A stretch of 64,000 nucleotides of DNA from an uncultured Chloroflexota bacterium. GTDB taxonomy: Bacteria; Chloroflexota; Anaerolineae; Anaerolineales; Anaerolineaceae. Location: the NCBI GenBank assembly GCA_902786265.1, contig CADACE010000017.1, positions 1-64,000 on the forward strand, written 5' to 3'. Under the pieces are notes generated by a model, which searched no databases, was not told the origin of the DNA, and saw only the letters and a list, made by a program, of their open reading frames with translations. Positions 31,152-53,959 of the stretch are shown here, piece by piece; positions within the stretch are counted from its first letter, which is position 1; each line of letters begins with the position of its first letter. The translations under genes and the position numbers were made by a program.

Positions 31152-32330
31152 ATGGCTAAGGGCAGTAAAAATAATGCACCCGGCAGTCTTGCGGTTGCGT
31201 TAGGTGTAGGTTTTGTATGGTTTACCAGCCAGTTTGGCGGCGGTTTTGCTTCAGGAACTCAGCTTTATCAGTATTTCATCAATTTCGGCATCTGGTGTCT
31301 GGCTACTCCCGCGATCGCGCAGCTGTTCCAGGCGTTTTTTCAATGGTATGCCCTGCGGTTTGCTTACGAACATAAGACAGTAAACTACCGCGACTTTTGC
31401 GATCAGTTTTATGGAAAATTCCGGGTAGTTTTTTCAAATCTTTATGAAGTTGTCTACCTGATGCTCATTCTGCTTGCCCCGTCCATTGCCTTCGCGACCG
31501 GCGGCTCAACACTCAATGAACTGACAGGGATCCCCTATATCATCTGTACTGTGATCGTGGGGATCCTTATTTATATCGTGGCACTTTTCAATACCGATAT
31601 GATCCGCAAAGCGGCAACGATCGTTTCCTATGTGCTCATCATCGGTGTGCTGATCGTTTTTATTCCCAACATCATCGCCGAATGGGGCGACATTATGGAT
31701 GCCATCCACCAGATGTCTGCCGGTGCGCTTCCTGTAGGCGCCTCAGGCCCTGGCGGGTTTGGCCCCGCACTGTGGAATTGTATTCTTTACGGGGCTTACC
31801 ATGTCGCTTCCATTGGCCTTTACGTTGCTCACGCGCAGAAATTCACCGAAGAAAAACAATGCTTCACCAGTATGGCTTACGGGTTCATTATTAACGCTGT
31901 CGTGATCTCACTCGTCAACTTCGGCCTGCTGGCTGTCGCGATGAATCCGGAACTGCCGAACTACTCCGTTTATACGCTGTTGTTTGCGCAGCGCGGTGTG
32001 ATCCCGGGTGTTCTGGCTCCGATGGTTTCCATCCTGATCATTATCGGCTCTGTATTCTCCGGTGTCAACATGATCACCGGCTTTGTCAACCGCGTTGTTA
32101 CCGGCCTTGAGAAAAATGAATCCGAAGCGGACACACAAAAGAAACGCACTCTGCGCACCAGAATTACTGCTCTGGCATGCACACTGCTCACCTTCGGCAT
32201 CGCCCAGTTCGGGCTGCTGCCGCTGGTTCGGAAAGGTTACAGCTATCTCGGCTTCGCCTGCATCGTGGTCATCGTGATCCCGTTCCTGATCCGTATGGTC
32301 CTTGAACTGCTGGGCGTTGTGAAGAAATAA
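31152..32330 (+). CDS. YkvI-like membrane transporter (APC/LeuT superfamily)
   Basis: The 392-residue protein has about ten to eleven membrane helices. Its first helix carries FGGGFASGTQLYQYFINFG, close to the GAGFASGQE signature of the YkvI family, distant relatives of amino-acid and branched-chain transporters of the LeuT fold. The start at 31152 is preferred because GAAGGGAG precedes it. It opens gene set A, 29 bases before the ACP-hydrolase gene, so it probably imports the substrate of that hydrolase. The substrate is unknown. Confidence 0.78.
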   Translation: MAKGSKNNAPGSLAVALGVGFVWFTSQFGGGFASGTQLYQYFINFGIWCLATPAIAQLFQAFFQWYALRFAYEHKTVNYRDFCDQFYGKFRVVFSNLYEVVYLMLILLAPSIAFATGGSTLNELTGIPYIICTVIVGILIYIVALFNTDMIRKAATIVSYVLIIGVLIVFIPNIIAEWGDIMDAIHQMSAGALPVGASGPGGFGPALWNCILYGAYHVASIGLYVAHAQKFTEEKQCFTSMAYGFIINAVVISLVNFGLLAVAMNPELPNYSVYTLLFAQRGVIPGVLAPMVSILIIIGSVFSGVNMITGFVNRVVTGLEKNESEADTQKKRTLRTRITALACTLLTFGIAQFGLLPLVRKGYSYLGFACIVVIVIPFLIRMVLELLGVVKK

Positions 32331-32359
32331 TTTGTCATTATATTACAAGGAGGTTTTTT

Positions 32360-34822
32360 ATGAGTATCAGACAGGAGATCTATGAAAAACTCGTTGAACG
32401 GGCTTCCCAGCTTTTCGGAAAGAGCCCGGCAGAGTTTTCCGAAGATACCCGCTTCGTGGAGGACTGCAACGCGAAATCGACACAGTACTCCCAGATCACC
32501 ACTTTTCTTGAGGATGAATTTGACACGGAAATCCCGTTCATGTCCTTCCGCCGCCAGGCTACCTTTGGGGAAGCTGTGGATTATGTGTTGACGGAATGCC
32601 TTGGTGAAGAGGCAGAAGCGGCAGCCCCAGCAGCCGCACCGGCACCGGCTCCCGCAGCCGCGCCTGCTTCCGGACGCCGCAAGGAGATTTTCGATAAACT
32701 CGTTGAACGCGCATCCCAGCTTTTCGGAAAAGCTCCGGAATCATTCTCTGAATCGACCCGCTTTGTTGAAGACTGCAATGCGAAATCCACACAGTATTCA
32801 CAGATCACAACCTTCCTTGAAGACGAATTTGATACCGAGATCCCGTTCATGTCCTTCCGCCGTCAGGCTACCTTTGGCGAGGCGGTGGATTATGTTCTGA
32901 CGGAATGTCTGGGTGAAGAAATTGAATCCGCAGCTTCTGCTGTACCTGCCGCAGCTGCGGCTCCGGCTCCTGTTCCGGCTGCTGCCCCGGCAGCTGCGGA
33001 AGAAGTTGAATCCTCCTCCGCAAAATCAGATCATGATGATGAACTGGCTCTCCGCGAACGCTTTACCCTGCGTGAAACCTTCCAGGGTGAAGAACTGGAT
33101 GCGATCTATATGGTAGCCCGCAAACCGGTCGCAGTTGACCCGAGCGTTGACCTCGCGAACTCTGATGACCCGATGGCCCGCATGGGACAGGGGTTCTGCC
33201 CGGCATTCAACCAGCGGGTTTATGAATGCGCTCCCGGCATCCTCTGCGAACAGGATGTGCCGGTGAAGATGCGCGACGGTGTTACCATCTACTGTGACAT
33301 TTACCGTCCAAAGGATGAAAGCCAGAAATATCCTGCCATTGTCTCCTGGTCCTGGTTCGGCAAACGCCCGGGTGAAGGTATGAGCGAATGGCAGATCATG
33401 GGCGTACCGCCCCATACCGTTTCCAAATTCGCGAAATTTGAATCCCCGGATCCGATGTACTGGTGCTACCAGGGCTACGCTGTCGCGAATGTTGATGTCC
33501 GCGGCGCCGGCCACTCCGAAGGCAACGTCCACATGTTCACTCATCAGGACCGCGAAGACGGTTATGACTTCGTGGAATGGCTGGGTGTGCAGCACTGGTG
33601 CAACGGCAACGTCGGTATGGCAGGAAACTCCGGTGTAGCGATGCACCAGTGGGGTATCGCTTCCATGCAGCCGCCGCACCTGAAGTGCATCGCCCCGTGG
33701 GAATGCACCACCGATCTTTACCGCGAATCCTTCTATGAAGGCGGCGTTCCGGCTCTTTCCTTCAACAAGTTCATTTCCGCCCAGGTTACCGGGACCGGCG
33801 GCGTTGACAGCCAGGTCGACATGGCTGTGAAATATCCGCTGATGAACGGTTATTGGGAAGACAAACGCCCCGATTTCTCCAAGGTCATCTGCCCGGTTTA
33901 CCAGACAGCCGGTTTCTCTCATTTCCATCTGCGCGGTTCTGTACAGGCCTTCCGCAAAGCCAAGACCAAGCTGAAGTGGCTGCGTGCCCACCGTGATTTC
34001 GAATGGCCGGATACCTATCAGCCGGAAAATCTGGAAGATCTGAAGCGCTTCTATGACCGCTATCTGAAGGATATCCACAATGGTTGGGAAATGACCCCGC
34101 GTGTCCGTCTTGACATTATGGATGCCTATGACTGCGATTATCAGGTTCGCCGTCCGGAAAATGAATTCCCGCTCAAACGCACGGAATACAAGAAGTTCTA
34201 TTTCGATGCTTCCGACCCGAACAACCTGACCATGCGCGATGAACCGGTCTCCGTGGAAAGCTCTGTGGCTTATGACGGGAACACCGGTCAGGTCGAATTC
34301 GATATGACCTTCAATGAAGATACCGAACTTACCGGTTACATGTACCTGCATCTGTTTGTTGCTCCGGAATCCTACAACGATATGGATATGTTCGTCAACA
34401 TCCAGAAGGCCGATGCGGACGGTAACTGGATCCCGTGGTATACCCTCGATGAACCGCATCCGGGTGCCTGGGGCAAGTGCCGTATTTCCCATCGTGAACT
34501 GGACCCGAAAGAATGCCAGACGATCAAGGACCTTATGGTGCAGCCGGTCATGGCACACCGCCGTGAACTCAAAGTCCAGCCGGGTGAGATCGTCCCGGTC
34601 GATATCGAGATCGTACCGAGTGCCCGTATCTGGCATAAGGGTGAAAAACTCCGTGTTCAGATCGCCGGCCGCTACATCCGTGAAGGCTGGTTCGAACCGC
34701 TTGCCTGGGATACCGACAACCATGGCCGCCAGATCATCTACACCGGCGGACAGTACCAGTCCTTCATCCAGGTACCGGTGATCCCTCCGAAGTACAAAGC
34801 CGGAGATTACGTTTACAGATAA
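32360..34822 (+). CDS. Tandem acyl carrier domains fused to a CocE/NonD-type serine hydrolase
   Basis: This 820-residue protein has two nearly identical ACP-like domains (about 6-84 and 108-187), joined by Ala/Pro-rich linkers (85-107, 188-225), then a CocE/NonD (X-Pro dipeptidyl-peptidase S15-like) hydrolase. The proposed phosphopantetheine serines are Ser40 and Ser143, each in NAKST where classical ACPs have DSL. The hydrolase has nucleophile Ser424 (AGNSGVA), a probable catalytic His in LRAHRDFEWP (His544), and the C-terminal jelly-roll ending in RVQIAGRYI and a late NHGRQIIYTGG. CocE enzymes cleave esters or amides through an acyl-serine. Fused carrier thiols suggest transfer of the acyl group to ACP rather than water. 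AAGGAGG precedes the ATG. Genes for AcpS, Pta and an acyl kinase follow. Confidence 0.85.
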   Translation: MSIRQEIYEKLVERASQLFGKSPAEFSEDTRFVEDCNAKSTQYSQITTFLEDEFDTEIPFMSFRRQATFGEAVDYVLTECLGEEAEAAAPAAAPAPAPAAAPASGRRKEIFDKLVERASQLFGKAPESFSESTRFVEDCNAKSTQYSQITTFLEDEFDTEIPFMSFRRQATFGEAVDYVLTECLGEEIESAASAVPAAAAAPAPVPAAAPAAAEEVESSSAKSDHDDELALRERFTLRETFQGEELDAIYMVARKPVAVDPSVDLANSDDPMARMGQGFCPAFNQRVYECAPGILCEQDVPVKMRDGVTIYCDIYRPKDESQKYPAIVSWSWFGKRPGEGMSEWQIMGVPPHTVSKFAKFESPDPMYWCYQGYAVANVDVRGAGHSEGNVHMFTHQDREDGYDFVEWLGVQHWCNGNVGMAGNSGVAMHQWGIASMQPPHLKCIAPWECTTDLYRESFYEGGVPALSFNKFISAQVTGTGGVDSQVDMAVKYPLMNGYWEDKRPDFSKVICPVYQTAGFSHFHLRGSVQAFRKAKTKLKWLRAHRDFEWPDTYQPENLEDLKRFYDRYLKDIHNGWEMTPRVRLDIMDAYDCDYQVRRPENEFPLKRTEYKKFYFDASDPNNLTMRDEPVSVESSVAYDGNTGQVEFDMTFNEDTELTGYMYLHLFVAPESYNDMDMFVNIQKADADGNWIPWYTLDEPHPGAWGKCRISHRELDPKECQTIKDLMVQPVMAHRRELKVQPGEIVPVDIEIVPSARIWHKGEKLRVQIAGRYIREGWFEPLAWDTDNHGRQIIYTGGQYQSFIQVPVIPPKYKAGDYVYR

Positions 34823-34889: not shown

Positions 34890-35264
34890 ATGATCATCGG
34901 GATCGGTACGGATCTGTTGAAAAAAGACGGTATTTCAGATGCTGTCTTACAGGCCGGTGATCCGTTTCGGGAAAAAACATTCACCCGGAAGGAACTGGAT
35001 CAGGCACAGGAAAGACCGGTCCCGGGAGATTACCTTCGCTGTCGTTTTGCAGCCAAGGAAGCTGTATTCAAATCCCTTGGGGCAGATCCGGAAAGCGCCC
35101 GGCTCAATGAGATCGAGATCCTCGATGATGAGAGAGGCGCTCCGCATGTAACACTTCACGGCGCACTCAAACAGCACGCCGTCATGAAAAAGATCCATGC
35201 CGTGCATGTCAGCATCAGCTATGATGGCGATTATGCACAGGCATTCGCCATTTCTGAGGGATAA
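34890..35264 (+). CDS. Holo-ACP synthase, phosphopantetheinyl transferase (set A)
   Basis: The 124-residue protein has the AcpS layout: GIGTDLL near the start (magnesium Asp), RCRFAAKEAVFKSLG in the middle, and the C-terminal VHVSISYDGDYAQAFA. It moves 4'-phosphopantetheine from CoA to the carrier-protein serine. Its place directly after the ACP-bearing hydrolase points to those domains as its substrate. A second, distinct copy lies at 52227. Neither sits with fatty-acid synthesis genes, so both look pathway-dedicated. Confidence 0.88.
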   Translation: MIIGIGTDLLKKDGISDAVLQAGDPFREKTFTRKELDQAQERPVPGDYLRCRFAAKEAVFKSLGADPESARLNEIEILDDERGAPHVTLHGALKQHAVMKKIHAVHVSISYDGDYAQAFAISEG

Positions 35265-35293: not shown

Positions 35294-36292
35294 ATGTCAC
35301 TTATTGAAACCCTGATCGAAAAAGCAAAACAATCTCCGAAACGTGTCGCGCTGCCCGAGTGCGAAGCTGACAAAACCCTGCTGGCTGCCCGCCGAGTCAA
35401 AGATGAAGGGATCGGTATCCCGGTCCTTGTGAACGATCCCGCGGTTATCCGGGAGACAGCTGCCCGTGTCGGTGTCAGCGTTGACGATATGGAAATCGTC
35501 GATATCGCTGATGAAGAATTCAAGGCTCAGGTCATTGCAAAATATATGGAATACCCGGCTGATAAACGCCAGCTTTCCGAAAAAGGTGCCCGCCGCAAGA
35601 TGGGCAATCCCATGTATTACGCGATGATCATGGAAGCTGCCGGTTTTGTTGACTGTACCTTCTGCGGTCACGTCAATACCACCGGAGACGTCCTGATGAC
35701 AGCCATGCAGGCGATCGGTATGCAGGATGGTGTGGATGTTCCTTCCATCTTCGCGCTCACTGAGATCCCGAATTTCAAGGGCTCTGAAGGAAATCTGCTC
35801 GCCCTTGCGGACTGCGGCCTGAACCCGGAACCGAAGGCTGATGACCTGGCATCCATCGCTATCGCCACCTGCGATAATGTCCATGCCCTGATGGGCTGGG
35901 AACCCCGCTGCGCTTTTCTGAGCTTTTCCACTCTTGGCAGCGGTACTGCCGAAAGTGTCGACAGGATCAACGAAGCGATTCGTATCGTCAAAGAACGCCG
36001 CCCGGACCTGAAGGTCGATGGTGAATTCCAGCTCGACACAGCTGTCGTTCCTGAAGTTGCGGCCAAAAAGGTGAAGAAAGAAAGTGAAGTCGCTGGAAAA
36101 GCCAATGTCCTGATTTTCCCGGATCTCAGCGCTGCCAATATCGGCATCAAGATGATCCAGATTTTTGCCGGCGGAAAAGGATACGGTCATACGCTTTCCG
36201 GCTTCAACAAACCGGTCGCTGACTCTTCCCGCGGCTCTTCTGTTGAAGAGATCGTCGGGGATATCGCGATGGTGATCATCGCTGCAAAATAG
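35294..36292 (+). CDS. Phosphate acyltransferase, Pta/Ptb family (set A)
   Basis: The 332-residue protein belongs to the phosphate acetyl/butyryltransferase family: LPECEADKTLLAARR, VDCTFCGHVNTTGDVL, FLSFSTLGSGTAESVDRINEA, DGEFQLDTAVVPEVAAKK, VAGKANVLIFPDLSAANIG and the final NKPVADSSRGSSVEEIVGD. Its full length and end are Pta-like. The family converts acyl-CoA and phosphate into acyl phosphate. Here the neighbours (ACPs, AcpS) raise the possibility that acyl-ACP is used, as PlsX does in lipid synthesis. The acyl chain is not identifiable. A paralogue is at 51221. Confidence 0.88.
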   Translation: MSLIETLIEKAKQSPKRVALPECEADKTLLAARRVKDEGIGIPVLVNDPAVIRETAARVGVSVDDMEIVDIADEEFKAQVIAKYMEYPADKRQLSEKGARRKMGNPMYYAMIMEAAGFVDCTFCGHVNTTGDVLMTAMQAIGMQDGVDVPSIFALTEIPNFKGSEGNLLALADCGLNPEPKADDLASIAIATCDNVHALMGWEPRCAFLSFSTLGSGTAESVDRINEAIRIVKERRPDLKVDGEFQLDTAVVPEVAAKKVKKESEVAGKANVLIFPDLSAANIGIKMIQIFAGGKGYGHTLSGFNKPVADSSRGSSVEEIVGDIAMVIIAAK

Positions 36293-36338: not shown

Positions 36339-37451
36339 ATGGGATATAAAATTTTTACTCTGAGCCCCGGTTCAACTTCGACAAAACTCGCTGTTTTTGA
36401 CGGCGAAGAAAGAATTTTCAAAGCCAATGTTCAGCATGACCCGGAAGTTTTGAAAACTTTTGCCCGTGTCAGTGAACAAAAGCCTTATCGTGTTCAGACC
36501 ATCCTTGACGAACTGGAAAAAGCCGGCATCAGCATCTCCGAAATGGATGCCTTCGCAGCTTACTCCGGCGGACTGGTCTCTACGCCCGGCGGTATTTTCC
36601 CGGTCAATGATAAGATCCTGGACGACTGCACTTCGGGCCGTCTGATGGAACATCCCGCTATTCTCGGTGCGCAGATCATCGACGCCTTTGCCAAAGAAGT
36701 CGGCAAACCCGCTTATTTGGTGAACCCTCCGGATGTGGATGAATTTGATGACGTTGCCAGAGTCACCGGGATCAAAGGCGTTTACCGTGAATCCCATGTC
36801 CATGTTCTGAACCAGAAGGAAGTTGCCATGCGGGCAGCCAAAGAACTGGGCAAGAAGTATGAAGAATGCAATTTCGTTGTCTGCCATGTGGGCGGCGGTA
36901 CATCTATTACAGCCCAGAAACAGGGACGGATCGTTGACGCCAATGACGTGCTGAATGGTGATGGTCCGATGGCTCCGAACCGATCCGGTTATGTCCCGCT
37001 TATGCCGGTCGTCAAGATGTGCTATTCCGGAAAATACAGTCTGGATGACATGAAGAAGAAAATTTCAAAGACCGGCGGTCTGCTGGGACTTCTCGGCACC
37101 GACAACATGCTGGAGATCGAGCAGAGGATCGCAGCCGGTGACAAATGGGCTGAACTGGTTTACAACAATTTTGCCTACCAGCTGGCGAAATACATCGGCT
37201 CTTACGCCTGTGTTCTCGAGGGTAAGGTGGATGCGGTCGTTATGACCGGCGGTGTTTCCAACGATGAAGACTTCATCGCAAATGTGAAGAAGTATGCCGG
37301 ATGGGTTGCTCCTTTCATTGTCTATGGCGGTGACTTTGAGATGGAAGCTCTGGCTTCCGGTGCCATCCGCGCACTGACCGGTGAAGAAGAAACCAAAGAA
37401 TACACCGGTGTTCCGGTCTGGACCGGTTTCGACTTTGAACCGAAGGAGTAA
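36339..37451 (+). CDS. buk: Butyrate kinase-family acyl kinase (set A)
   Basis: The 370-residue protein is a member of the acetate/butyrate kinase (ASKHA) family: SPGSTSTKLAVF (phosphate 1 loop), HPAILGAQIIDAFAKEVGKPAYLVNPPDVDEFDDVARVTG, VVCHVGGGTSITA, and DAVVMTGGVSNDEDF. It makes ATP and a free acid from acyl phosphate and ADP. It directly follows the phosphate acyltransferase, as in butyrate fermentation operons. Actual specificity could be butyrate, isobutyrate, propionate or another short acid. A paralogue lies at 47833. Confidence 0.92.
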   Translation: MGYKIFTLSPGSTSTKLAVFDGEERIFKANVQHDPEVLKTFARVSEQKPYRVQTILDELEKAGISISEMDAFAAYSGGLVSTPGGIFPVNDKILDDCTSGRLMEHPAILGAQIIDAFAKEVGKPAYLVNPPDVDEFDDVARVTGIKGVYRESHVHVLNQKEVAMRAAKELGKKYEECNFVVCHVGGGTSITAQKQGRIVDANDVLNGDGPMAPNRSGYVPLMPVVKMCYSGKYSLDDMKKKISKTGGLLGLLGTDNMLEIEQRIAAGDKWAELVYNNFAYQLAKYIGSYACVLEGKVDAVVMTGGVSNDEDFIANVKKYAGWVAPFIVYGGDFEMEALASGAIRALTGEEETKEYTGVPVWTGFDFEPKE

Positions 37452-37453
37452 GC

Positions 37454-38431
37454 ATGGCAAGACGGGAACGGCTGTGTCCTGAAATCACAGACCCTCAGCT
37501 CAGGGGCTTTTTGGACATGCTCCCGGATCTTCGTGCCTTTAACTCGGGGCTGGTCCTGTCGCAAAAGCGTTTTGCCGAAACGACTGAGTTTTCTTTACCC
37601 GGCCGTAAGATCTCTGTATGTTTTCACCGGGCGAAGGATGCGCAGGGAAATGATATCCCCGGTGCGCGTCCGGTGCTTTTTGAATATCATGGCGGCGGAT
37701 TTATGCTGGGCGATGCTGAAAAGACGGATGCCCTGTGTGAACGGATCGCAAGAGATTTAGGCATTCATGTCGTCGGTGTGAATTACCGCCTGGCTCCGGA
37801 AAATCCTTTTCCCGCGGCTGTAAAGGATGCCTATCAGGTGATTCGCCGCATGCGGCAGTATGCTTCGGAATACGGGATCGATCCGGACCGGATGGCTGTG
37901 ATGGGATACTCAGCCGGAGCCACACTCAGCACCGCGGCTGCCATGCAGGCCGTGCTGAACGGTGAATTTGCGCTGAAAGCCCAGGTGCTGCACTATCCGT
38001 ATCTGGATGCTGTTCATCTTCCGGATGAAAAAAAGCATTATGACTGCGATATGGCACCCGAAGTGATGAAAGCCTTCACACTGCTTTATTCCACGGAAGA
38101 AGAGCGGAAGAATTCCTATGTTTCTCCGGTCTGCGCGTCTGCCGATGAACTGCGGGGCTGCGCGCCGGCACTGATCCTGCCCGCGGAAAGGGATTCCCTG
38201 AAGGAGGAAGGACTGCTGTACGCACAGCATCTGCGGGATGCGGGCGTGGAAGTGAAGGTTCAGGTGATGGATGCCATGCACCACGGTTATGTGGAAGACG
38301 CTGCCAATGAAGAAGCATATGCTGCCACTCCCGCGGAAGTCCGGAAGACACATGATCCGTCTTTCCGGCAGCAGGCTGATCACGCGATCCAATTAACGGA
38401 GGAATTTCTGAAAGAGAAATTCGCATTGTGA
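37454..38431 (+). CDS. Alpha/beta hydrolase, HSL-like esterase (set A)
   Basis: The 325-residue protein has the HSL-family YHGGGFMLGD oxyanion motif, VNYRLAPENPFPAAVKDAY, nucleophile serine in MGYSAGATLS, Asp in PAERDSL and His in AMHHGYVED. It starts two bases after the kinase stop, with its AAGGAG overlapping that gene's end, so it is part of the operon. It may open ester substrates or recycle acyl-carrier esters or thioesters. Confidence 0.9.
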   Translation: MARRERLCPEITDPQLRGFLDMLPDLRAFNSGLVLSQKRFAETTEFSLPGRKISVCFHRAKDAQGNDIPGARPVLFEYHGGGFMLGDAEKTDALCERIARDLGIHVVGVNYRLAPENPFPAAVKDAYQVIRRMRQYASEYGIDPDRMAVMGYSAGATLSTAAAMQAVLNGEFALKAQVLHYPYLDAVHLPDEKKHYDCDMAPEVMKAFTLLYSTEEERKNSYVSPVCASADELRGCAPALILPAERDSLKEEGLLYAQHLRDAGVEVKVQVMDAMHHGYVEDAANEEAYAATPAEVRKTHDPSFRQQADHAIQLTEEFLKEKFAL

Positions 38432-45076: not shown

Positions 45077-47167
45077 ATGAAGATTTTTATTGATGACCGG
45101 GAAATAGAGGCGAAAGAAGGACAATCCGTTCTTGACGCAGCTCTTGATGCCGGGATCTTCATTCCTCATCTTTGCAGCCATCCGGATCTTGAGGCGAAAG
45201 GCGGCTGCAGACTCTGTTCTATTGAAGTAGAGGGTGAAGATAAGGCGGTACCCGCATGTGAGACCATCGTGAAAGATGGTATGAAGGTCACCGTAAACGG
45301 ACCGAAGGCGGAAAAAGTCAGAAGGATGTCGATGGAACTGATCCTTGCCTCCCATCCCGCTGACTGCACCGGATGCCCGAAATACGGCAAATGCGAGCTG
45401 CAGAGTATGTACCAGTATATGGGCGTGAGTCCGGAAAGATGGCGCAAGAAGTCCCGACCGGTACCGAACAATGATTCCAATCCGCTCATTTCCCACCTGT
45501 TTACCCGCTGTATCCGCTGCGGACGCTGCATCAGAGCCTGTCAGGATCTCCGCGGCGTAAAGGTATTGGATTATATCAACACACCGCAGGGCATTAGAGC
45601 CGGGATCCCGGACGGCAAGTCTCTGGCGGAAGCCGGATGCCGTTTCTGCGGTGCGTGTATTGAAGTATGCCCCACCGGTTCCATCGTGGACCAGGTGAAA
45701 ATCATGAAGGATAACCGTTCCTACGCGGACAACATTGTGCCCTGCAGGGCAACTTGTCCCGCCCGTGTGGATATTCCGCGGTTTATCCGCTATATCAAAA
45801 ACGGCGATTTCGACAAGGCGACTGCGGTCATCAGGGAGAGAGTACCGTTCCCGGAAACACTCGGTAGTGTCTGTACCCATCCCTGCGAAACAGAATGTAA
45901 ACGCGGTGAAGTGAACGAACCGCTTTCAATCTGCCGCCTGAAGAGAGCTGCCGGTGTAAACGACAGCGGGGCCTGGAAGGCGAGAGTCCGGAAGGACGCT
46001 CCTACGGGCAAAAAGGCTGCTGTTATCGGTGCGGGTCCTGCCGGTCTTACTGCGGCATATTACCTTGCGAAGAAGGGCCATGAGGTGACAGTGTTCGAGA
46101 AGAACCCGAAAGCGGGCGGCCAGTGCCGTTATGGCATTCCGTACTATCGCCTTCCCGACGAACTGCTCGACAAGGAAATTGACGCGATGCTGGAATCCGG
46201 CTTTACCCTGAAGACCGATACCGAAGCTCCGGCTCCGGCTGACCTTCTTGCAAGCGGATTCGATACAGTGCTTGTCGCTGTTGGTACGCATCAGGGTACC
46301 AAGCTCCCGTTGGAAGGCGGTGATCTCCCCGGCGTTTATCTGAACGCGGAATTTCTGAAGAGATCCCGCATGGGCGATCCGATGCCCGTCGGTGAAAAGG
46401 TGATGATCCTCGGCGGCGGCAGTGTTGCTTATGACTGCGCGAGGACTGCTATCAGGCTCGGCGCGAAAGAAGTCCATGTAGCCTGTCTCGAAAGTCCCGA
46501 AAAGATGACTGCCTCAAAAGATGAGATCGAAGAAGGCGCCGAAGAAGGTGTGATCCTTCATGCCGCCCATTCGTTCCGCCGCATTACCGGTACCGACAAA
46601 GCCGAAGGTGTGGAACTTCAAAAGATCGAACGCTTCTATTTTGACGAAAATCACAGAGCCGTTATCGACCTGGTCGAAGGCAGCAATCAGATCATCCCTG
46701 TGGACAATGTTATTTTCGCGGTAGGGCAAAAACCGTTTGGGACGGATAAGATGGGGCTTGAACTTACCCATGGTCCGTACATTGCGGCGGATGAAAACCT
46801 GGCCACAAGTATGGCGGGTGTCTATGCTGCGGGCGATGTTGTGACCGGGACAAAGACGGTCATTGACGCGATCGCCGCAGGCCGCAAGGCTGCCGAACAA
46901 ATGGACCTCTTCATGGGAGGCGACGGCGACATCAGTGAAGAGCTTCTGGATAATGAAGTGCCGTCTCCGTTCATCGGACATATCGATGGCTTCGCAGCCC
47001 TCAAGCGCGGTGAACCGAAAGTCGCGGATGCGAAAGAACGTGCGCATAGCTTTAGCCTTGTGGAGCAGCCATTCTCCTGCGATCAGGCGAAATGTGAAGC
47101 GGAACGATGCCTGCAGTGCGACCTGAGACTGCAGCTGACCCGCCCGAAGCTTTGGAACGAATACTAA
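45077..47167 (+). CDS. Multi-cluster Fe-S NAD(P)H oxidoreductase (NuoG-like N-terminus, GltD-like C-terminus)
   Basis: The 696-residue protein strings together several redox modules. A 2Fe-2S ferredoxin has Cys33, 44, 47 and 61. A NuoG/HydA-type His-Cys3 site has His93, Cys97, 100 and 106. Two 4Fe-4S sites have Cys145/148/151/155 and Cys188/191/194/198. A GltD-type part has CRATCPARVDIPRF and CTHPCETECKRG. FAD and NAD(P)H sites are at GAGPAGLTAAYYLAKKG (318 on) and MILGGGSVAYDCARTA. The tail ends CLQCDLRL. It likely passes electrons between NAD(P)H and ferredoxin or the neighbouring flavoenzymes in the cytoplasm. The next gene encodes a NuoF-tail-like ferredoxin, probably its subunit. Confidence 0.86.
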   Translation: MKIFIDDREIEAKEGQSVLDAALDAGIFIPHLCSHPDLEAKGGCRLCSIEVEGEDKAVPACETIVKDGMKVTVNGPKAEKVRRMSMELILASHPADCTGCPKYGKCELQSMYQYMGVSPERWRKKSRPVPNNDSNPLISHLFTRCIRCGRCIRACQDLRGVKVLDYINTPQGIRAGIPDGKSLAEAGCRFCGACIEVCPTGSIVDQVKIMKDNRSYADNIVPCRATCPARVDIPRFIRYIKNGDFDKATAVIRERVPFPETLGSVCTHPCETECKRGEVNEPLSICRLKRAAGVNDSGAWKARVRKDAPTGKKAAVIGAGPAGLTAAYYLAKKGHEVTVFEKNPKAGGQCRYGIPYYRLPDELLDKEIDAMLESGFTLKTDTEAPAPADLLASGFDTVLVAVGTHQGTKLPLEGGDLPGVYLNAEFLKRSRMGDPMPVGEKVMILGGGSVAYDCARTAIRLGAKEVHVACLESPEKMTASKDEIEEGAEEGVILHAAHSFRRITGTDKAEGVELQKIERFYFDENHRAVIDLVEGSNQIIPVDNVIFAVGQKPFGTDKMGLELTHGPYIAADENLATSMAGVYAAGDVVTGTKTVIDAIAAGRKAAEQMDLFMGGDGDISEELLDNEVPSPFIGHIDGFAALKRGEPKVADAKERAHSFSLVEQPFSCDQAKCEAERCLQCDLRLQLTRPKLWNEY

Positions 47168-47178: not shown

Positions 47179-47754
47179 ATGACGACTTTAGAACATGTTA
47201 AAGCCCTGAAGGACACAGAGTGCATTGTGGATGTCCTCCTGAATGAAGTAAAGAAGAACGAATGCAAGACCTGCGGGAAATGCACTTTCGGCTATGAGGG
47301 AATTAACCAGCTTGAAATGATCCTTTCCGATATCACGGAAAAGAAAGGCCGTCCCGGAGACATTGAACTTATGGATGACCTCTGCGGGGTGATGAAGGAA
47401 CAGTCCCTCTGTGAGACCGGTGAAGAAATCGCAGCCGCGGTTCTGGAAGCTATTTCGGCTTACAGAAAGGACTTTGAAGACCACATCAGCAAGAGAGGCT
47501 GCCGCGCGGGTGTCTGCAAAAAGTACATGACCTACCATGTGCTTGCGGCGAAGTGTATCGGCTGCGGTGACTGCATGGATGTCTGTGAGGATGACGCGAT
47601 CCTCGGCAAGAAGAAGTTTGTGCATGTGATCGTACAGGATGAATGTACTCAGTGCGGCAAATGTCTTGAGGCTTGTGACGAAGAAGCGATCGTGACCGCG
47701 GGTGCTATCAAACCGCGCTGCCCGGCAAAGCCGATTCCCTGCAAGGCAAAATAG
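47179..47754 (+). CDS. NuoF C-terminal-like ferredoxin subunit
   Basis: The 191-residue protein corresponds to only the end of NuoF/HydB-type NADH dehydrogenase subunits. A 4Fe-4S site is formed by Cys29/32/35 (CKTCGKC) and Cys78 (SLCETG). The linker CRAGVCKKYMTYHVLAAKC follows, then two ferredoxin clusters (Cys126/129/132/136 and Cys156/159/162/166). The NADH- and FMN-binding parts of NuoF are absent. AAGGAGG, 12 bases after the previous stop, sets the start at 47179. Together with the 696-residue protein it rebuilds a NuoG/NuoF-like wire around a GltD-like flavin core. Confidence 0.82.
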   Translation: MTTLEHVKALKDTECIVDVLLNEVKKNECKTCGKCTFGYEGINQLEMILSDITEKKGRPGDIELMDDLCGVMKEQSLCETGEEIAAAVLEAISAYRKDFEDHISKRGCRAGVCKKYMTYHVLAAKCIGCGDCMDVCEDDAILGKKKFVHVIVQDECTQCGKCLEACDEEAIVTAGAIKPRCPAKPIPCKAK

Positions 47755-47832: not shown

Positions 47833-48942
47833 ATGGCATACAGAATTCTTGTTATCAATCCGGGGTCAACTTCGACCAAGGTTGGTGCCTTTGAAGGAGA
47901 AAAAGAACTGTTTTCTGTCAATGTATCGCATGATGCTGAAAAGCTGAAAACATTCGCCACTGTCAGTGACCAGCTTCCCTACCGAAAAGAAACGATTCTC
48001 AAAGCGCTCAAGGATGAAGGGATCGACCTTTCTTCGTTTGACGCGTTTGTCGGCAGAGGCGGCGGCCTTCTGGCAGTTGAAGGCGGTACCTATAAAATCA
48101 ATGATATTCTTCTGGACCACGCGGAACGCGGCGCGAACGGCATCCAGCATCCCGCTCAGCTTGGTTCCCAGCTGGCGAACGGGTTCGCTGTGCAGTACGG
48201 GAAGCCCGCGTTTGTTGTGAACCCTCCGGATACCGATGAAATTATCCTTGAAGCACGTATGACAGGGCTGAAGGGAGTTTACCGGAACGTCCATCTGCAC
48301 GCGCTCAACCTTAAAGAAACAGCCATCCGGCACAGTGCGGCAAACGGTTGGAAATATGAGGATAAAAACTATATTGTCTGCCATATCGGCGGCGGCATTT
48401 CCATCTCCGCGCACCGGAAGGGCAAGATGATCGACGGCAATGACATCGTCGGCGGTGAAGGGCCGATGGCTCCTACACGCTGCGGTGCGATCCCTGTCGG
48501 AGAGGTCATCAAATACTGCGCGAAAGCGGAAGATATCAAAGAAGTCAAGAATATCTGCATGAAATCCGGCGGTTTTGTCAGCCATCTCGGAACCAGCGAT
48601 GCCAGAGAAGTCAACGCAATGGCAGCCGAAGGCAATAAATACGCCCAACTGGTCTGGGACACAATGATGTACCAGATCATCAAGTATATCGGCGCGATGG
48701 CCGGTGTTCTTCACGGTCAGGTGGATGGAATTCTCCTGGGCGGCGGTATGGTCCATAACAAAGATCTTGTGAAGGAAATTACGGACAGCTGCTCCTGGAT
48801 CGCTCCTGTTTCTGCCTATCCGGGCGAATTCGAGCTTGAAGCGATGGCGGCCGGTGCTATCCGTGTTTTGAACGGTGAGGAAGAACCGAAAACCTATACA
48901 GGTAAACCAAGATGGAGCCCAAGCGATCTTGAGTCTCTGTAA
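47833..48942 (+). CDS. buk: Butyrate kinase-family acyl kinase (set B)
   Basis: The 369-residue paralogue of the kinase at 36339 has NPGSTSTKVGAF, GGLLAVEGGTYKINDILLDH, PAFVVNPPDTDEI, VCHIGGGISISAHRKGKMIDGNDIVGGEGPMAPTRCG and DGILLGGGMVHNKDL. The family start is at 47833; the in-frame ATG at 47812 lacks a binding site and adds seven atypical residues. It makes ATP from an acyl phosphate. In set B the kinase is separated from its phosphate acyltransferase by the thiolase-DUF35-ACP genes, unlike classical ptb-buk order. Confidence 0.92.
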   Translation: MAYRILVINPGSTSTKVGAFEGEKELFSVNVSHDAEKLKTFATVSDQLPYRKETILKALKDEGIDLSSFDAFVGRGGGLLAVEGGTYKINDILLDHAERGANGIQHPAQLGSQLANGFAVQYGKPAFVVNPPDTDEIILEARMTGLKGVYRNVHLHALNLKETAIRHSAANGWKYEDKNYIVCHIGGGISISAHRKGKMIDGNDIVGGEGPMAPTRCGAIPVGEVIKYCAKAEDIKEVKNICMKSGGFVSHLGTSDAREVNAMAAEGNKYAQLVWDTMMYQIIKYIGAMAGVLHGQVDGILLGGGMVHNKDLVKEITDSCSWIAPVSAYPGEFELEAMAAGAIRVLNGEEEPKTYTGKPRWSPSDLESL

Positions 48943-48966: not shown

Positions 48967-50331
48967 ATGGTAAAAGTGGAGCAAATCGTACAACAAACTA
49001 AACTGCATCCATATTCACGAAGTGTTTCGATCATCGGAGTCGGCAGTACGCCTTTCATGTACACCGTCGACAGTCCGGAGACTAACGGGCTCACGGAAGG
49101 TGAATTGTTCGGTTATGCCGCATTGAAGGCAATGGAAGATGCCGGTGTAAACCCGAAGAATATTGATTATTATTTCCATGGTGAGGCAAGCCCGCTCAAC
49201 GGGTCCAACTACCTTGTTCCGAACATCCAGATCGGCAACTGGTTTGGCATGAAGGGTAAAGGCTCGATCCATCACTCTGAAGCCTGCTGCACCGGTTATC
49301 TGGCAATCGAACAGGCAGTGAATGCTATCGCTTCCGGCAAATATGACTGCGTACTGACAGCCTGCGTGGAATTTGGCGACAGCACTCCTGCTCCGGCGGA
49401 CAATGTGGAAACCCGCAAGCACCCCTACAAACGCGACAAGATGACCATGGACAAGTTCCTCAGGACTACCCAGTGGCTCTATGACCGCACCTACACCCGC
49501 GCGCTGATGGCAGGGCAGGAAATGATTTACGATGATGCGGCTGAATGGTATGTCCGCACCCGCAAGATCACCGCGGAACAGATGAACGACGCGCTGAACT
49601 GGATGGCGATCAATTCCCGCCGCAATGCCGCGACTACTCCTCTCAGTCTGATGAACTGGTCCAAGACGACCGATAACCCGATCAAGACCTATGACGAGCT
49701 GGCTGAAGAGCAGGGAATGACTGTGGATGAATACATGAATTCTCCCTTCAACCCGCGCATGGGTGACTTCCTCCGCGCGGCCGGTGTCGAGCTGAAATGC
49801 GACGGCGCGGCTGCCTGTATCGTCTGTGCTACCGATATGATCCCGCAGATCGCTCCGAACCTGAAGCATGCCCCGATCGAAGTCCTCGGTATCGGAAGCT
49901 CCGCTCTGGAAGCTACCAACCCGCACTTCGAAGTCCGTGCCACAGAAGAAGCTGTCCGCCAGGTTTATGAACTGACCGGGTTGAGCGGCGACGATCTCGA
50001 CCTCTTCTATGCTAATGACTTTATCATCACCTCCCAGCTCATCGCTGCCGAAATCGCCGGATACCTCCCGTTTGGTGAAGGCTGGAAATATATCGTAGAC
50101 GGACGCACTGCCTGGGACGGCGACAAACCGCTCAACTCCAACGGCGGACGCACAGCCTTCGGTCATGCTCATGCGGCATCCGGTCTGGCTGATGTTTACG
50201 AAGCCTGCAAGCAGATGTGGGGCGAGATGGGTGAACATCAGGTCAAGATCAAGAACCCGAAAACTGCCATGCTCAGAGGTTATGGCGGCGCACAAAATGT
50301 CGCGGCAATCATTCTGCAGAAGAAAGACTAA
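48967..50331 (+). CDS. SCP2-like thiolase/ketoacyl synthase-like enzyme
   Basis: The 454-residue protein has the thiolase fold: SIIGVGSTPF at the start, nucleophile Cys107 or Cys108 (HSEACCTGYLAIEQAV), and catalytic His400 in NGGRTAFGHAHAASG. The end GYGGAQNVAAIIL lacks the second cysteine of classical degradative thiolases, as in SCP-x-like and condensing-type members. An insertion of about 100 residues (roughly 140-260) lies between. It makes or breaks a C-C bond next to a thioester. The DUF35 gene that follows encodes the usual partner of such thiolases, and an ACP follows that, so the acyl carrier may be ACP rather than CoA. Confidence 0.85.
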   Translation: MVKVEQIVQQTKLHPYSRSVSIIGVGSTPFMYTVDSPETNGLTEGELFGYAALKAMEDAGVNPKNIDYYFHGEASPLNGSNYLVPNIQIGNWFGMKGKGSIHHSEACCTGYLAIEQAVNAIASGKYDCVLTACVEFGDSTPAPADNVETRKHPYKRDKMTMDKFLRTTQWLYDRTYTRALMAGQEMIYDDAAEWYVRTRKITAEQMNDALNWMAINSRRNAATTPLSLMNWSKTTDNPIKTYDELAEEQGMTVDEYMNSPFNPRMGDFLRAAGVELKCDGAAACIVCATDMIPQIAPNLKHAPIEVLGIGSSALEATNPHFEVRATEEAVRQVYELTGLSGDDLDLFYANDFIITSQLIAAEIAGYLPFGEGWKYIVDGRTAWDGDKPLNSNGGRTAFGHAHAASGLADVYEACKQMWGEMGEHQVKIKNPKTAMLRGYGGAQNVAAIILQKKD

Positions 50332-50350: not shown

Positions 50351-50770
50351 ATGGCTATCAAATTGGAAAAAGTGGTTGAACACTACTACGAAGCGCTTGA
50401 AGAGGGCAAGATCCTCGGACGCAAGTGCCCGGTCTGCGGGAATGTTGAATTTCCTCCGGTTTATGCCTGCAACAAATGCGGAAACTATGAAACCGAATGG
50501 TATGAGATTAGCGGCAAAGCCAGGATCCATTCCATCGTAATGCCTGCTGCGCTTTCTTCCAAACCGGAATATAAAAATCTCGGCAAATATGCCTACTGCG
50601 AAATAGAGCTTGAGGAAGGCACGCACCTGAACGCCGTTGTCCGCGGCATCAACAAGAAGAAGCGCCAGGAACTGATGGATAAACTTCCGGAAGTCTACTG
50701 CCACGCTGCGATCTTCGAACGCGAACAGGGATTCAAGACTGTCGTCTTTGATCTGGATGAAGGTCAGTGA
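50351..50770 (+). CDS. DUF35 OB-fold zinc-ribbon thiolase partner
   Basis: The 139-residue protein has a rubredoxin-like zinc ribbon, KCPVCGNVEFPP and CNKCGNYE (two C-x2-C knuckles, about 25-45), then an OB-fold (about 46-135), as in DUF35/ChsH2/PhlB-type proteins. These bind SCP2-like thiolases and channel acyl groups. GGAGG sets the start at 50351, 19 bases after the thiolase stop. In archaea a DUF35 protein bridges thiolase and HMG-CoA synthase. Confidence 0.88.
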   Translation: MAIKLEKVVEHYYEALEEGKILGRKCPVCGNVEFPPVYACNKCGNYETEWYEISGKARIHSIVMPAALSSKPEYKNLGKYAYCEIELEEGTHLNAVVRGINKKKRQELMDKLPEVYCHAAIFEREQGFKTVVFDLDEGQ

Positions 50771-50876: not shown

Positions 50877-51110
50877 ATGGATAGAAAAGAATTGGAAGAA
50901 AAGATCATTGAGTTGGTTTCCGTTGCTTACAAGACGGATAATGTTACACTCGAAACAAGCTTCAAAAATGATCTGAAGGGTGCCTCTGTTCAGATGGTCG
51001 CTCTCGTTTCCGAGATCGAAAATGAACTGGATGCCACGATCATGCTCGCGGATGCATCCGCATGCTCCACTGTAGCGGACCTTGTTGATCTCGTTGAAGA
51101 TGAATTGTAA
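50877..51110 (+). CDS. Discrete acyl carrier protein (set B)
   Basis: The 77-residue acidic protein has the ACP four-helix pattern. The proposed phosphopantetheine serine is Ser37 in LKGASVQMVALVSEIENEL, where classical ACPs have DSL; helix 2 is otherwise typical. The C-terminal helix is STVADLVDLVEDEL. AAGGAG sets the start at 50877. It lies between DUF35 and the phosphate acyltransferase and is distinct from the paired ACP domains of set A. I take it as the acyl carrier for the thiolase; no fatty-acid synthesis genes are near. Confidence 0.85.
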   Translation: MDRKELEEKIIELVSVAYKTDNVTLETSFKNDLKGASVQMVALVSEIENELDATIMLADASACSTVADLVDLVEDEL

Positions 51111-51220: not shown

Positions 51221-52225
51221 ATGAGTGTTTTAGATAAGATTTTTGAAAAAGCAAAGCAGAATCCGCAAAAAGTAGCTTTTCCGGAAGCGATGAATGAAAA
51301 GATGATGCAGGCCGCGTATGAGGCAGGCAAAGACGGATATATCATCCCGATCCTTGTCGGCAACGGCGCCGAAATCAAGGCCGCGGCGGAAGAACGCGGT
51401 TATGATGCTTCTGTGTTCACCATTGTGGATATCAACGAAGAAGAATATAAAAACAAGGTCATCGCTGCTTTTGTCGCGCGGGAAGATACCCGGCTGAAAG
51501 AAAAAGCGCTTGGACGCCGCATGCAGGATCCGCTTTATTACGCGATGGCGATGCAAAAAGTCGGCGAAGTGGATGTTACCTTTGCCGGTATCGACTACAC
51601 CACCGGTGACGTCCTGCTTGCTGGCCAGATGATCATCGGGCTTAAAGAGGGCATCAGCACCATCTCCAGCATCGGTCTCTGCGACATTCCGGGGTATGAG
51701 GGCAGCGAAGGCAGTCTGCTCGCGGTCGGTGACAGCGGTGTATGCACCAATCCGAACCCGGAACAGCTGGCGGATATCGCGATTTCCGCCTGTGAAACGG
51801 TTCAGGGTCTGCTGGACTGGGAACCGCGCTGCGCAATGGTCTGCTATTCCACACTGGGCAGCGGACAGGGTGAGCTGATCGACAAGGTCAAGGAAGCGCT
51901 CCGTATCGCTCAGGAAAAACGCCCGGATCTCAACATCGACGGCGAATTCCAGCTGGACGCGGCGATTTCACCGGCTGTGGCTGCCAAGAAGGTCAAACGC
52001 GAAAGCAAGGTTGCCGGTAAGGCCAACATCCTGATCTGGCCGGACCTGAACGTCGGCAATATCGCCGTCAAACTCATCCAGCAGTTCGGTCACGCGAATG
52101 CCTACGGACCGATGCTCCAGGGCTTCAGCAGCATTGTCTGCGACTGCTCCCGCGGCGCGCCGGTCTCCGAGATCAAGGGCAACATCGTCATTTCCGCGGT
52201 CCGTGCGGCAGGTTTGAAGAACTGA
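51221..52225 (+). CDS. Phosphate acyltransferase, Pta/Ptb family (set B)
   Basis: The 334-residue paralogue of the enzyme at 35294 has FPEAMNEKMMQAAYEAGKDG, VTFAGIDYTTGDVLLAGQM, MVCYSTLGSGQGELIDKVKEA, DGEFQLDAAISPAVAAKK, VAGKANILIWPDLNVGNIAVKL and the end CSRGAPVSEIKGNIV. It turns an acyl thioester and phosphate into an acyl phosphate for the kinase at 47833. It directly precedes a second holo-ACP synthase gene, by a single base. Confidence 0.88.
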   Translation: MSVLDKIFEKAKQNPQKVAFPEAMNEKMMQAAYEAGKDGYIIPILVGNGAEIKAAAEERGYDASVFTIVDINEEEYKNKVIAAFVAREDTRLKEKALGRRMQDPLYYAMAMQKVGEVDVTFAGIDYTTGDVLLAGQMIIGLKEGISTISSIGLCDIPGYEGSEGSLLAVGDSGVCTNPNPEQLADIAISACETVQGLLDWEPRCAMVCYSTLGSGQGELIDKVKEALRIAQEKRPDLNIDGEFQLDAAISPAVAAKKVKRESKVAGKANILIWPDLNVGNIAVKLIQQFGHANAYGPMLQGFSSIVCDCSRGAPVSEIKGNIVISAVRAAGLKN

Positions 52226-52226
52226 C

Positions 52227-52640
52227 ATGAATGAAAGAATTTCCGGTGCGGGGGTCGACCTTGTCTCCATCAGCGAGATCGAGGAGCTTGACAAGCGCAC
52301 CCGCGGCGCGTTTACAGAGCGGACCTTTTCGGATATGGAGAGGGCCGAAGCGGAACAGTCACCCGACAGGTATTCCTTTCTTGCGGGCAGATTTGCGGTA
52401 AAAGAAGCTGTTTTCAAGGCTGTCGCGCACCTCACACCGGAAAAATCTTTTGACTTCAGGATCGTCGAAACAAAGCGGAACGCTGACGGATCTCCGGAGA
52501 TCGTCATCAACGAATCTCTGGCGGCTGTTTTGAGATCAGCTGCCGTCACAAAGCTGCTTGTTTCCATTACAAATCAAGGCGGACTGGCGCTTGCCCAGGT
52601 CGTTGCTGTCAGTGAGAGCAGCCCTGAAAGCTGCTCATAA
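52227..52640 (+). CDS. Holo-ACP synthase, phosphopantetheinyl transferase (set B)
   Basis: The 137-residue protein has the AcpS motifs GAGVDLVSISEIEEL, FLAGRFAVKEAVFKAVAH and the C-terminal LLVSITNQGGLALAQVVA. It differs clearly from the copy at 34890 (the N-terminal VDLV variant is the more classical form). It starts one base after the Pta-like stop, so it is in the same operon and probably loads the ACP at 50877. Whether either copy also serves fatty-acid ACP cannot be told from this window. Confidence 0.88.
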   Translation: MNERISGAGVDLVSISEIEELDKRTRGAFTERTFSDMERAEAEQSPDRYSFLAGRFAVKEAVFKAVAHLTPEKSFDFRIVETKRNADGSPEIVINESLAAVLRSAAVTKLLVSITNQGGLALAQVVAVSESSPESCS

Positions 52641-52647
52641 TTGAATC

Positions 52648-52719
52648 GTGTGTCAATAAGGCAGTTTTTCAGGGCCGATCCATTTCTTCATAAAGCACCC
52701 TTATTGACACACTTTTTTT
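52648..52719 (+). terminator. Strong terminator/attenuator before the MFS gene
   Basis: GTGTGTCAATAAGG (52648-52661) and CCTTATTGACACAC (52699-52712) are a perfect 14-bp inverted repeat followed by seven T. It ends the AcpS transcript. The ribosome binding site of the next gene begins right after the T-run, so read-through or antitermination would govern that transporter. Confidence 0.85.
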
Positions 52720-52732
52720 GGAGAAAATTCAT

Positions 52733-53959
52733 ATGGATATCATGAAAAAAAGATGGCTTATCCTTTTCGCCAGCTGCCTGGTGACTTTGTGCGCCGGGTC
52801 GCTGTATGCCTGGAGCGTGTTTGCCACCCCGATGGCGGAATATTTATCCACGCTTACGGGTACGCAGATCGCGAGCCTCGCGATCGTGTTCACGGTTGCG
52901 AATTCGGTAGGCCCGATTACCATGATCTCGGGTGGAGCGATCAACGACAGGATCGGTCCCCGCTGGATCCTGATCATCGGCGGTCTTTTGTTCGGCGCAG
53001 GGATGATCGGCTCAGGCTTTGCAAAATCTGTTACGGGGCTGGTCATCGCTTATGGGCTCGGAGTCGGGCTTGGTGTGGGGATGGTTTACGGCACGATCGT
53101 TTCCAACGCGGTCAAATTCTTTCCCGATAAATCCGGTCTTGCCGGAGGACTCACGACAGCCTGCTATGGCGGCAGTTCCATCATTATCCCGATCATCGCC
53201 ACCGCGATGCTGACCCGTTATGAGATCACGACCTGTTTCAAGATCCTTGGGGCTGTGATGGGTGCACTCATTGTCCTCTCTTCCTTTGTGATCGAAGCCT
53301 GCCCGGCCGGTTTTACTGTTGCCGGTGCGGATAGCAAAAAGGGCACCAAAGCTGCTGCGCCTGCGGTCGATTATACCTGGCGGCAGATGCTGGCTGAAAA
53401 GAAGTTTTATCTGATGCTGGTCGTGCTGATGTGCGGGGCTTTCGGCGGGATGATGATCATCTCCCAGGCGTCTCCGCTTGCGCAGAGGATGATGGGGTTC
53501 ACCCCCGCCGCCGCTGCCGCAGTCGTTTCCATACTTGCGTTCTTCAACATGCTCGGCAGGCTGGCGTCGGGAATGATCTCCGACAAATTAGGCGCGGAAC
53601 GGACGATGGAAGTCACCTTCTCTCTGTCATGTGTGGCCTGTATTCTGCTGTATTTCTGCGGTGCCGGAAAAGACGCGATGTTTTATATCGGACTTTCGGT
53701 TGTGGGGTTCAGCTTCGGCAGTATTATGGGCATCTATCCGGGGTATACGGCCAAACAATTCGGACGGAAGAACAACAGTGTCAATTACGGCATTATGTTT
53801 ATCGGTTTTGCTCTGGCAGGGTTGTTTGGCCCGATGATCATGAACTCGATCTACGGTTCTACTGGGATCTATCAGCCGGCATTCCTTGTTTCCGCGGGCC
53901 TGGGCCTGGTCGGATTGATCCTTGTTTTTATCCTGGATCCGAAGAAAAAAGCAAATTGA
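52733..53959 (+). CDS. MFS transporter, oxalate/formate antiporter (OFA)-like
   Basis: The 408-residue protein has twelve helices and OFA-family features: SLYAWSVFATPMAEYL in helix 1, GGAINDRIGPRWILIIGG, GLGVGLGVGMVYGTIVSNAVKFFPDKSGLAGGL, and FNMLGRLASGMISDKLGAERTM in the second half. The family moves small carboxylates such as oxalate, formate, lactate or pyruvate. TTGGAGA sets the start at 52733 over the in-frame TTG at 52718. As the last gene next to set B it may import the acid substrate or export the acid product. Confidence 0.88.
   Translation: MDIMKKRWLILFASCLVTLCAGSLYAWSVFATPMAEYLSTLTGTQIASLAIVFTVANSVGPITMISGGAINDRIGPRWILIIGGLLFGAGMIGSGFAKSVTGLVIAYGLGVGLGVGMVYGTIVSNAVKFFPDKSGLAGGLTTACYGGSSIIIPIIATAMLTRYEITTCFKILGAVMGALIVLSSFVIEACPAGFTVAGADSKKGTKAAAPAVDYTWRQMLAEKKFYLMLVVLMCGAFGGMMIISQASPLAQRMMGFTPAAAAAVVSILAFFNMLGRLASGMISDKLGAERTMEVTFSLSCVACILLYFCGAGKDAMFYIGLSVVGFSFGSIMGIYPGYTAKQFGRKNNSVNYGIMFIGFALAGLFGPMIMNSIYGSTGIYQPAFLVSAGLGLVGLILVFILDPKKKAN

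Follow-up and report, generated by a model that had tools for sequence, protein, structure and literature searches.

Probable acyl-carrier-protein-based energy conservation by a catabolic gene module in an uncultured Anaerolineaceae bacterium and its relatives in several phyla

According to the prevailing view, fermenting bacteria make ATP from acyl-coenzyme A (acyl-CoA) thioesters with the help of a phosphotransacylase and a kinase, as in the Ptb-Buk and Pta-AckA pairs. In citrate lyase and malonate decarboxylase, a dedicated carrier protein holds the acyl group during breakdown. PlsX, in turn, makes acyl phosphate from phosphate and an acyl group bound to acyl carrier protein (ACP). Here we analysed a stretch of 64,000 nucleotides (the window; contig CADACE010000017.1 of assembly GCA_902786265.1) from an uncultured gut bacterium of the phylum Chloroflexota and the family Anaerolineaceae. 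It carries two gene sets, A (31152-39965) and B (41836-53959), each of which resembles these systems in part. We consider there to be a good probability that the two sets represent a module for catabolism and energy conservation that relies on an ACP of its own, with a substrate that is probably derived from polyphenols. The central route, from acyl-ACP to acyl phosphate to ATP, appears well supported at the level of sequence. We found no description of a catabolic ACP-Pta-Buk cluster in the open-access papers searched.

A first, sequence-only reading of the window, made without database searches, had proposed that both sets hold the same four families, and Pfam and NCBIfam matches bear this out: an ACP, an AcpS-type phosphopantetheinyl transferase, a Pta-family phosphotransacylase and a kinase of the butyrate kinase (Buk) family are found in each (Table 1). 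By profile, both acyltransferases are Pta-type and not Ptb-type, and their kinase partner is a butyrate kinase and not an acetate kinase. The module shares with Ptb-Buk and Pta-AckA the phosphotransacylase family with its catalytic residues, the kinase family and, presumably, the production of acyl phosphate and ATP. However, it differs from them in the pairing of a Pta-type with a Buk-type enzyme, in the loss of the arginines that contact the CoA phosphates and in having its own ACP and AcpS. The presumed use of a dedicated ACP for catabolism is a feature in common with citrate lyase and malonate decarboxylase, whereas the AcpS genes, the transfer of the acyl group to phosphate and then to a kinase, and the S15 hydrolase or thiolase front end are not. 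Neither CitG/CitX nor MdcB/MdcG nor the lyase/transferase subunits were among the Pfam and NCBIfam matches of the cluster proteins, the rest of the genome not having been searched for them. As for PlsX, the module Pta would run a similar reaction, but both Pta A and Pta B match only the PTA_PTB family in Pfam, with no match to the PlsX family, and their product would feed a kinase instead of a glycerol-phosphate acyltransferase.

The phosphotransacylases are particularly informative about the carrier. The P. gingivalis enzyme touches the 3'- and beta-phosphates of CoA with Arg89 and Arg135, which correspond to R87 and R133 of M. thermophila (Mt) Pta; their mutation lowers activity by 58% and 21%, respectively, and mutants of S311, R312, D309 and D318 lose all or most of it (PMC6461089). 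We compared 63 module Ptas (A and B of the window and 61 from 57 loci) with 29 classical ones, 23 of which come from Lachnospirales. Arginine is present at neither site in any of the 63 module Ptas, the R133 site being occupied by L, M or I in 60 of them and by A, N or Y in the remaining three. Classical Ptas, in contrast, have kept R133 in 29/29 and R87 in 28/29 sequences, and position 133 is K or R in Ptb enzymes. Residues Q244, K257, N279, K283, Q286, S309 and R310 (Mt numbering) are retained in 63/63 module Ptas. The MaeB-type Pta domains of the window's order (L130, L132, L133 and L137) have kept R87/R133 and lost S309/R310, a pattern consistent with the role of MaeB Pta domains as CoA sensors (PMC7902834). 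The MaeB counterpart of Pta Y282 lines the acetate pocket (PMC7902834), and the V or I found at this site in all 63 module Ptas suggests that they accept a bigger acyl group. The 63 sequences form a single clade (support 100/99), and in the Lachnospirales sample a score gap separates module-type (>=390 bits) from classical (<=280 bits) Ptas. A structure predicted from two Pta sequences was poor (pLDDT 60) and was not used. Taken as a whole, the residue pattern indicates that the module Pta no longer grips the nucleotide half of CoA, as would be expected of an enzyme acting on acyl-ACP.

To find relatives, an alignment of the A and B Buk proteins was scanned against 84,980 species genomes, and the best 80 of the 429 loci were examined; gene calls in these are uncurated stop-to-stop frames, and metagenome bins may carry wrong taxon labels. 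Neighbourhood annotation revealed the ACP-S15-AcpS-Pta-Buk association, at times with one member missing and with the ACP either fused or separate, in multiple phyla. It was seen in records of Lachnospiraceae, Oscillospirales, Erysipelotrichaceae, Coriobacteriia, one Treponema, Dehalococcoidia, Deferrisomatales and Acidobacteria; one locus (L050) is labelled Anaerolineaceae RGIG1627. Strain-named records with the module include Agathobacter ruminis, Konateibacter massiliensis, Flavonifractor sp. AGMB03687, Collinsella phocaeensis and Anaerobacterium chartisolvens. An ACP lies within 6 kb of 49 of the 61 module Ptas, and an S15 or thiolase gene within 8 kb of 49 of the 61, counts that are partly conditioned on Buk, through which the relatives were collected. 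A thiolase and DUF35 accompany the module in Coriobacteriia, Erysipelotrichaceae and Lachnospirales, and three loci (L107, L109 and L116) contain both the S15 and the thiolase type. Moreover, DUF35 is fused to an ACP in L107, L109 and L128, and in L128 a long Ala/Pro linker joins the two. An internal contrast comes from the smaller part of the 80 loci in which the module is absent and Buk is accompanied by a Ptb-type enzyme (L118, most of L088-L103 and some further loci). Likewise, 23 classical Pta loci, spanning about 4 kb with about 1.5 kb on each side of the Pta, contain no ACP or AcpS. Scans of viral contigs gave no relatives.

Several of these loci have features of their own. L088-L103 and L118 (for example, L101:1057-12000) share another conserved Buk/Ptb cluster without an ACP, with partners that by eye resemble a pyruvate:ferredoxin oxidoreductase, isopropylmalate-dehydrogenase-like and aconitase-X-like proteins and a carboxylate transporter. 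At L065:1565-3781, an HSL esterase and the module Pta occupy one open frame and might be a natural fusion. L121 and L126 have AP_endonuc_2 TIM-barrel genes in the vicinity of the module, a feature also of C-glycoside deglycosylation systems, and L121 has further genes nearby that look oxidoreductase-like by eye.

Carrier and catalytic residues are also conserved in the ACPs, the S15 hydrolases and the thiolases. The carrier serine is kept in 76/76 ACP domains and is preceded by Lys in 58/76, whereas canonical ACPs have Asp at this position. This lysine may explain why the cluster has an AcpS of its own. Further ACP and AcpS-type genes of the window's genome sit on other contigs, and the ACP on one of these (C25) has the usual D-S motif. 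In the fusion protein of set A, the carrier serines are S40 and its repeat; the E. coli AcpP sequence served only as an alignment control. An AlphaFold model (mean pLDDT 80.9) shows two four-helix ACP domains, with S40 opening helix II (helix 40-54). The hydrolase nucleophile, S424 in a GxSx context, is invariant in 42/42 aligned sequences; H544 is invariant too. Thiolase B has its likely active-site Cys in SEACCTG and His in GHAHAASG, both motifs being kept among 14 relatives. The sequence-only reading had named lipid or polyketide synthesis as the roles of the ACPs that would speak against it. No such genes stand beside the ACPs in the gene maps examined, and no ketosynthase, acyltransferase or ketoreductase genes accompany the ACPs of sets A and B among the Pfam and NCBIfam matches, the thiolase-superfamily enzyme being the only one of a related kind.

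From this gene content and its conservation, we infer the following reactions, directions and type of substrate. The dedicated AcpS would arm the ACP. The FAD reductase, together with the NuoG/GltD- and NuoF-like proteins, would ready the substrate by reducing it or would accept electrons. In set A, the S15 serine hydrolase would act as an acyltransferase and load the acyl group onto the thiol of the ACP; in set B, the thiolase/DUF35 pair would do so through C-C cleavage. The specialised Pta would then phosphorolyse acyl-ACP to acyl phosphate, from which the Buk-family enzyme would make ATP and the free acid, and the carboxylate transporter could export the latter. The sequence-only reading had already suggested the order acyl-ACP, acyl phosphate, ATP, and also the use of gene neighbourhoods and phylogeny to examine it. 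The neighbours turned out to be conserved, the same association recurring in loci from several phyla; together with the Pta clade, the lost CoA contacts and the retained catalytic residues, this lends the proposed order strong support in sequence. The phylogenetic expectation held in part, as module Ptas form a clade apart and the Buk copies form none of their own. A dedicated kinase clade was rejected, because module labels require at least 10 changes on the Buk tree. Its absence is unsurprising if the kinase meets only acyl phosphate.

What might the substrate be? Phloroglucinol breakdown in C. scatologenes employs SDR, cyclase, 3HCDH and BKACE families; it relies on CoA and on ordinary Pta/Ptb and kinases, with no ACP described (PMC10470551). 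Genes of the same families, namely cyclase (PF04199), BKACE (PF05853), 3HCDH and SDR, adjoin the module in several relatives (L096, L114, L125 and L104/L219), some of these loci having fewer than four of the families, and in L207 phloroglucinol-type genes and the module form one contiguous run. Such linkage is present in Dehalococcoidia, Acidobacteria, Clostridia, Flavonifractor and one Lachnospirales genome. Because phloroglucinol-type genes lie beside the module in these relatives, they point to polyphenols, and the substrate is most likely polyphenol-derived, for example, a phloroglucinol bearing an acyl or alkyl group, an aryl ester or a beta-diketone. The cyclase, called DPGC-like from gene context and without direct comparison to a characterised enzyme, is found in 15 of the 29 module genomes (14 at E<1e-60) versus 6 of the 337 genomes of Lachnospirales that lack a module Pta (E<1e-60); Fisher's test gives 2e-14 for 15/29 and 3e-13 for 14/29, with a background drawn from a single order (Lachnospirales) and module genomes from several phyla. 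A fairer test within the Lachnospirales sample gives 3/7 versus 6/337 (p=4e-4), or 2/6 (p=0.007) after removal of the centre genome, which had been picked for having both. Set B also resembles PhlACB (thiolase PhlC, DUF35-type PhlB and PhlA) in the combination of a thiolase with a DUF35-type partner, and thiolase B matches PhlC structures, among others, in the PDB. However, set B has no third, PhlA-like condensing subunit, and the ACP of the module stands beside DUF35 or is fused to it. Phloretin/DAPG hydrolase (PF18089), which cuts acyl-phloroglucinol, might be a functional counterpart of the module, but it belongs to another Pfam family and uses water as the acceptor where the module would use ACP. 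Strong matches to phloretin hydrolase are present in 4/6 genomes that have the cyclase alone, where they lie some 4.5 kb away from it, and in 5/16 genomes with both cyclase and module, where they are on other contigs. This is suggestive of the module replacing the function of the hydrolase, with small numbers and incomplete genomes on both sides of the comparison.

It is also quite possible, if somewhat against our expectation, that the ACP-to-ATP logic holds for a substrate that is no polyphenol, such as another class of ester or amide, and that the linkage to phloroglucinol-type genes is secondary. As a variant of the same scheme, this option shares part of its probability with our preferred explanation. 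S15 enzymes usually cleave esters and amides, set A has an esterase and a transporter of its own, and roughly half of the genomes searched that carry the module lack the cyclase, those of the window and its genus-mate among them. The recurrence of the linkage in several groups and the cyclase enrichment argue against it.

The two sets appear to be connected. In a genome of the same genus (G668), both Ptas are on one contig, where set A, the FAD/NuoG/NuoF genes and set B form an unbroken run. Identity between the sets is 47% for Pta, 47% for Buk and 31% for AcpS. The sequence-only reading had spoken of two copies of the module. Both sets indeed hold it, but because they are contiguous in the same-genus genome and mixed in Erysipelotrichaceae, A and B look like two stages or branches of one pathway rather than independent copies. 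The window's draft genome (about 89% complete) has no PTA_PTB matches besides Pta A and Pta B. Three of its proteins match the acetokinase family, and one of these is a full-length acetate kinase encoded outside the sets. Among the other 12 genus members searched, there was no Pta match in 9 and a weaker one in 3. Within a 301-genome sample of the order, to which G668 does not belong, the ACP-S15 fusion occurs only in the window's own genome. A Buk search in 400 genomes of the phylum identified, besides the window, more distant Buks in four genomes; a weak Ptb-like gene neighbours the Buk in three of them, and no ACP or AcpS was found within the short loci examined.

In addition to the dependence of the co-occurrence counts on Buk and the one-order background of the cyclase comparison, several points weigh against a polyphenol-consuming, ACP-based module. 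Neither the window's genome (G000) nor its genus-mate G668 has a match to the cyclase, which is part of the C. scatologenes cluster, or to phloretin/DAPG hydrolase; these two organisms would therefore stop at an earlier product or take another substrate. Unless it starts from an activated ester, the transfer to a thioester would run uphill. Since R87 and R133 are inessential for catalysis, as the P. gingivalis mutants show (PMC6461089), their loss marks an altered carrier site and not the use of ACP itself. Finally, because the Pta and kinase reactions are reversible, the direction is one that we infer.

This reversibility underlies the main competing explanation, in which Buk would make acyl phosphate from an acid and ATP, Pta would pass the acyl group to ACP, and the S15 or thiolase enzyme would acylate an acceptor in biosynthesis or modification. 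Both enzyme types are able to act as acyltransferases, and the loss of CoA contacts fits either direction. Yet the neighbours look catabolic (a reductase chain, a carboxylate transporter, an esterase and, in relatives, phloroglucinol-degradation-type genes), and no typical biosynthetic condensing or ketoreductase genes were seen in the window's sets, so that we regard a reverse route as unlikely. Even less probable is an ordinary CoA-dependent phosphotransacylase working with Buk, the ACP and AcpS serving only the hydrolase or thiolase or some unrelated task. Pta and Buk do usually handle CoA esters and acyl phosphates, and the two arginines are not strictly essential, but their loss throughout the module Ptas, set against the universal R133 of classical Ptas, and the fact that ACP, AcpS and Pta have remained neighbours in several phyla speak for a different carrier. 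Chance adjacency of genes that each belong to common families is refuted, for practical purposes, by the same association across phyla, the ACP fusions to S15 and DUF35 and the dedicated Pta clade.

Table 1. Genes of sets A and B and of the interval between them, with window positions
Feature	Position	Strand	Basis or remark
Membrane transporter, first gene of set A	31152..32330	+	Kept 5' of ACP-S15 in L050-L061
ACP-ACP-S15 (CocE/NonD) hydrolase fusion, 820 aa, Ala/Pro linkers	32360..34822	+	Pfam S15 3.9e-37; NCBIfam ACP model 9e-21
AcpS-type phosphopantetheinyl transferase A	34890..35264	+	Pfam ACPS 9e-12
Pta A, phosphotransacylase without CoA-phosphate arginines	35294..36292	+	Pfam PTA_PTB 8e-87; P, M at Mt R87, R133 sites
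Butyrate-kinase-family acyl kinase A	36339..37451	+	TIGR02707, 411 bits
HSL-family (Abhydrolase_3) esterase	37454..38431	+	Pfam 1.2e-57
FMN_red flavoprotein, set A	38550..39491	+	Pfam 8e-17; cysteine motifs by eye (possible Fe-S, zinc-ribbon sites)
Small DUF2798-like membrane protein, set A	39522..39965	+	Profile made from set A and set B copies
SnoaL-like protein (NTF2 fold by eye), between sets	40093..40458	-	103 bits to L121 homologue
AraC-family regulator, between sets	40455..41390	-	Pfam HTH_18; kept 5' of set A in L050-L056
DUF2798-like membrane protein, set B	41836..42285	+	Pfam 1.9e-4, under curated cut-off
FMN_red flavoprotein, set B	42412..43359	+	Pfam 1.1e-9
FAD_binding_2 reductase, no fused cytochrome (fumarate/urocanate/vinylphenol reductase superfamily)	43461..44954	+	Pfam 2e-55; PDB 1qo8, 6t85
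NuoG-N/GltD-like electron-transfer flavoprotein	45077..47167	+	Pfam/NCBIfam profile matches
NuoF-C-terminal-like ferredoxin	47179..47754	+	Pfam/NCBIfam profile matches
Butyrate-kinase-family acyl kinase B	47833..48942	+	TIGR02707, 381 bits
Thiolase-superfamily enzyme, set B	48967..50331	+	Pfam Thiolase_C_1 1.4e-23
zf-ChsH2/DUF35 thiolase partner	50351..50770	+	Pfam 1.6e-7
Free-standing ACP, carrier serine in KGAS	50877..51110	+	Pfam PP-binding 3e-7
Pta B, phosphotransacylase without CoA-phosphate arginines	51221..52225	+	Pfam PTA_PTB 7e-88; E, L at Mt R87, R133 sites
AcpS-type phosphopantetheinyl transferase B	52227..52640	+	Pfam 5.6e-14
MFS carboxylate transporter (SfMCT/OFA family)	52718..53959	+	NCBIfam SfMCT 396 bits, cut-off 320

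Within each set the genes are co-directional (+) and closely spaced, with intergenic gaps of 2-118 bp in set A and 1-126 bp in set B, and most of them have a purine-rich stretch 5' of the start codon. The transporter that opens set A, with no matches in Pfam or NCBIfam, is one that we take to be YkvI-like. The best NCBIfam match of the FAD_binding_2 reductase is VprA, under the cut-off. Homologues of the SnoaL-like protein encoded between the sets are found near the module in L119 and L121, and it might be a pathway isomerase. Elsewhere in the window, one protein (55665-56984, +) by eye combines an XRE-type HTH, an AAA_28-like ATPase and a CYTH-like domain, and another (24471-26531, +) resembles a BspA-like leucine-rich surface protein.

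It is tempting to speculate that the module represents a widespread anaerobic strategy, in which plant polyphenols are cleaved by retro-Claisen reaction or acyl transfer and the cleavage, whose energy would otherwise be lost, yields acyl-ACP that a Pta specific for ACP and an acyl kinase turn into ATP, in parallel to CoA and independently of it. We put this broader proposal forward tentatively, as its chances seem to us slightly short of even. If true, there would be a second carrier for substrate-level phosphorylation beside CoA, and cleavage of the hydrolase or thiolase type could yield ATP, not heat. The module would then be a candidate means, open to testing, by which microbes of guts and sediments draw energy from polyphenols.

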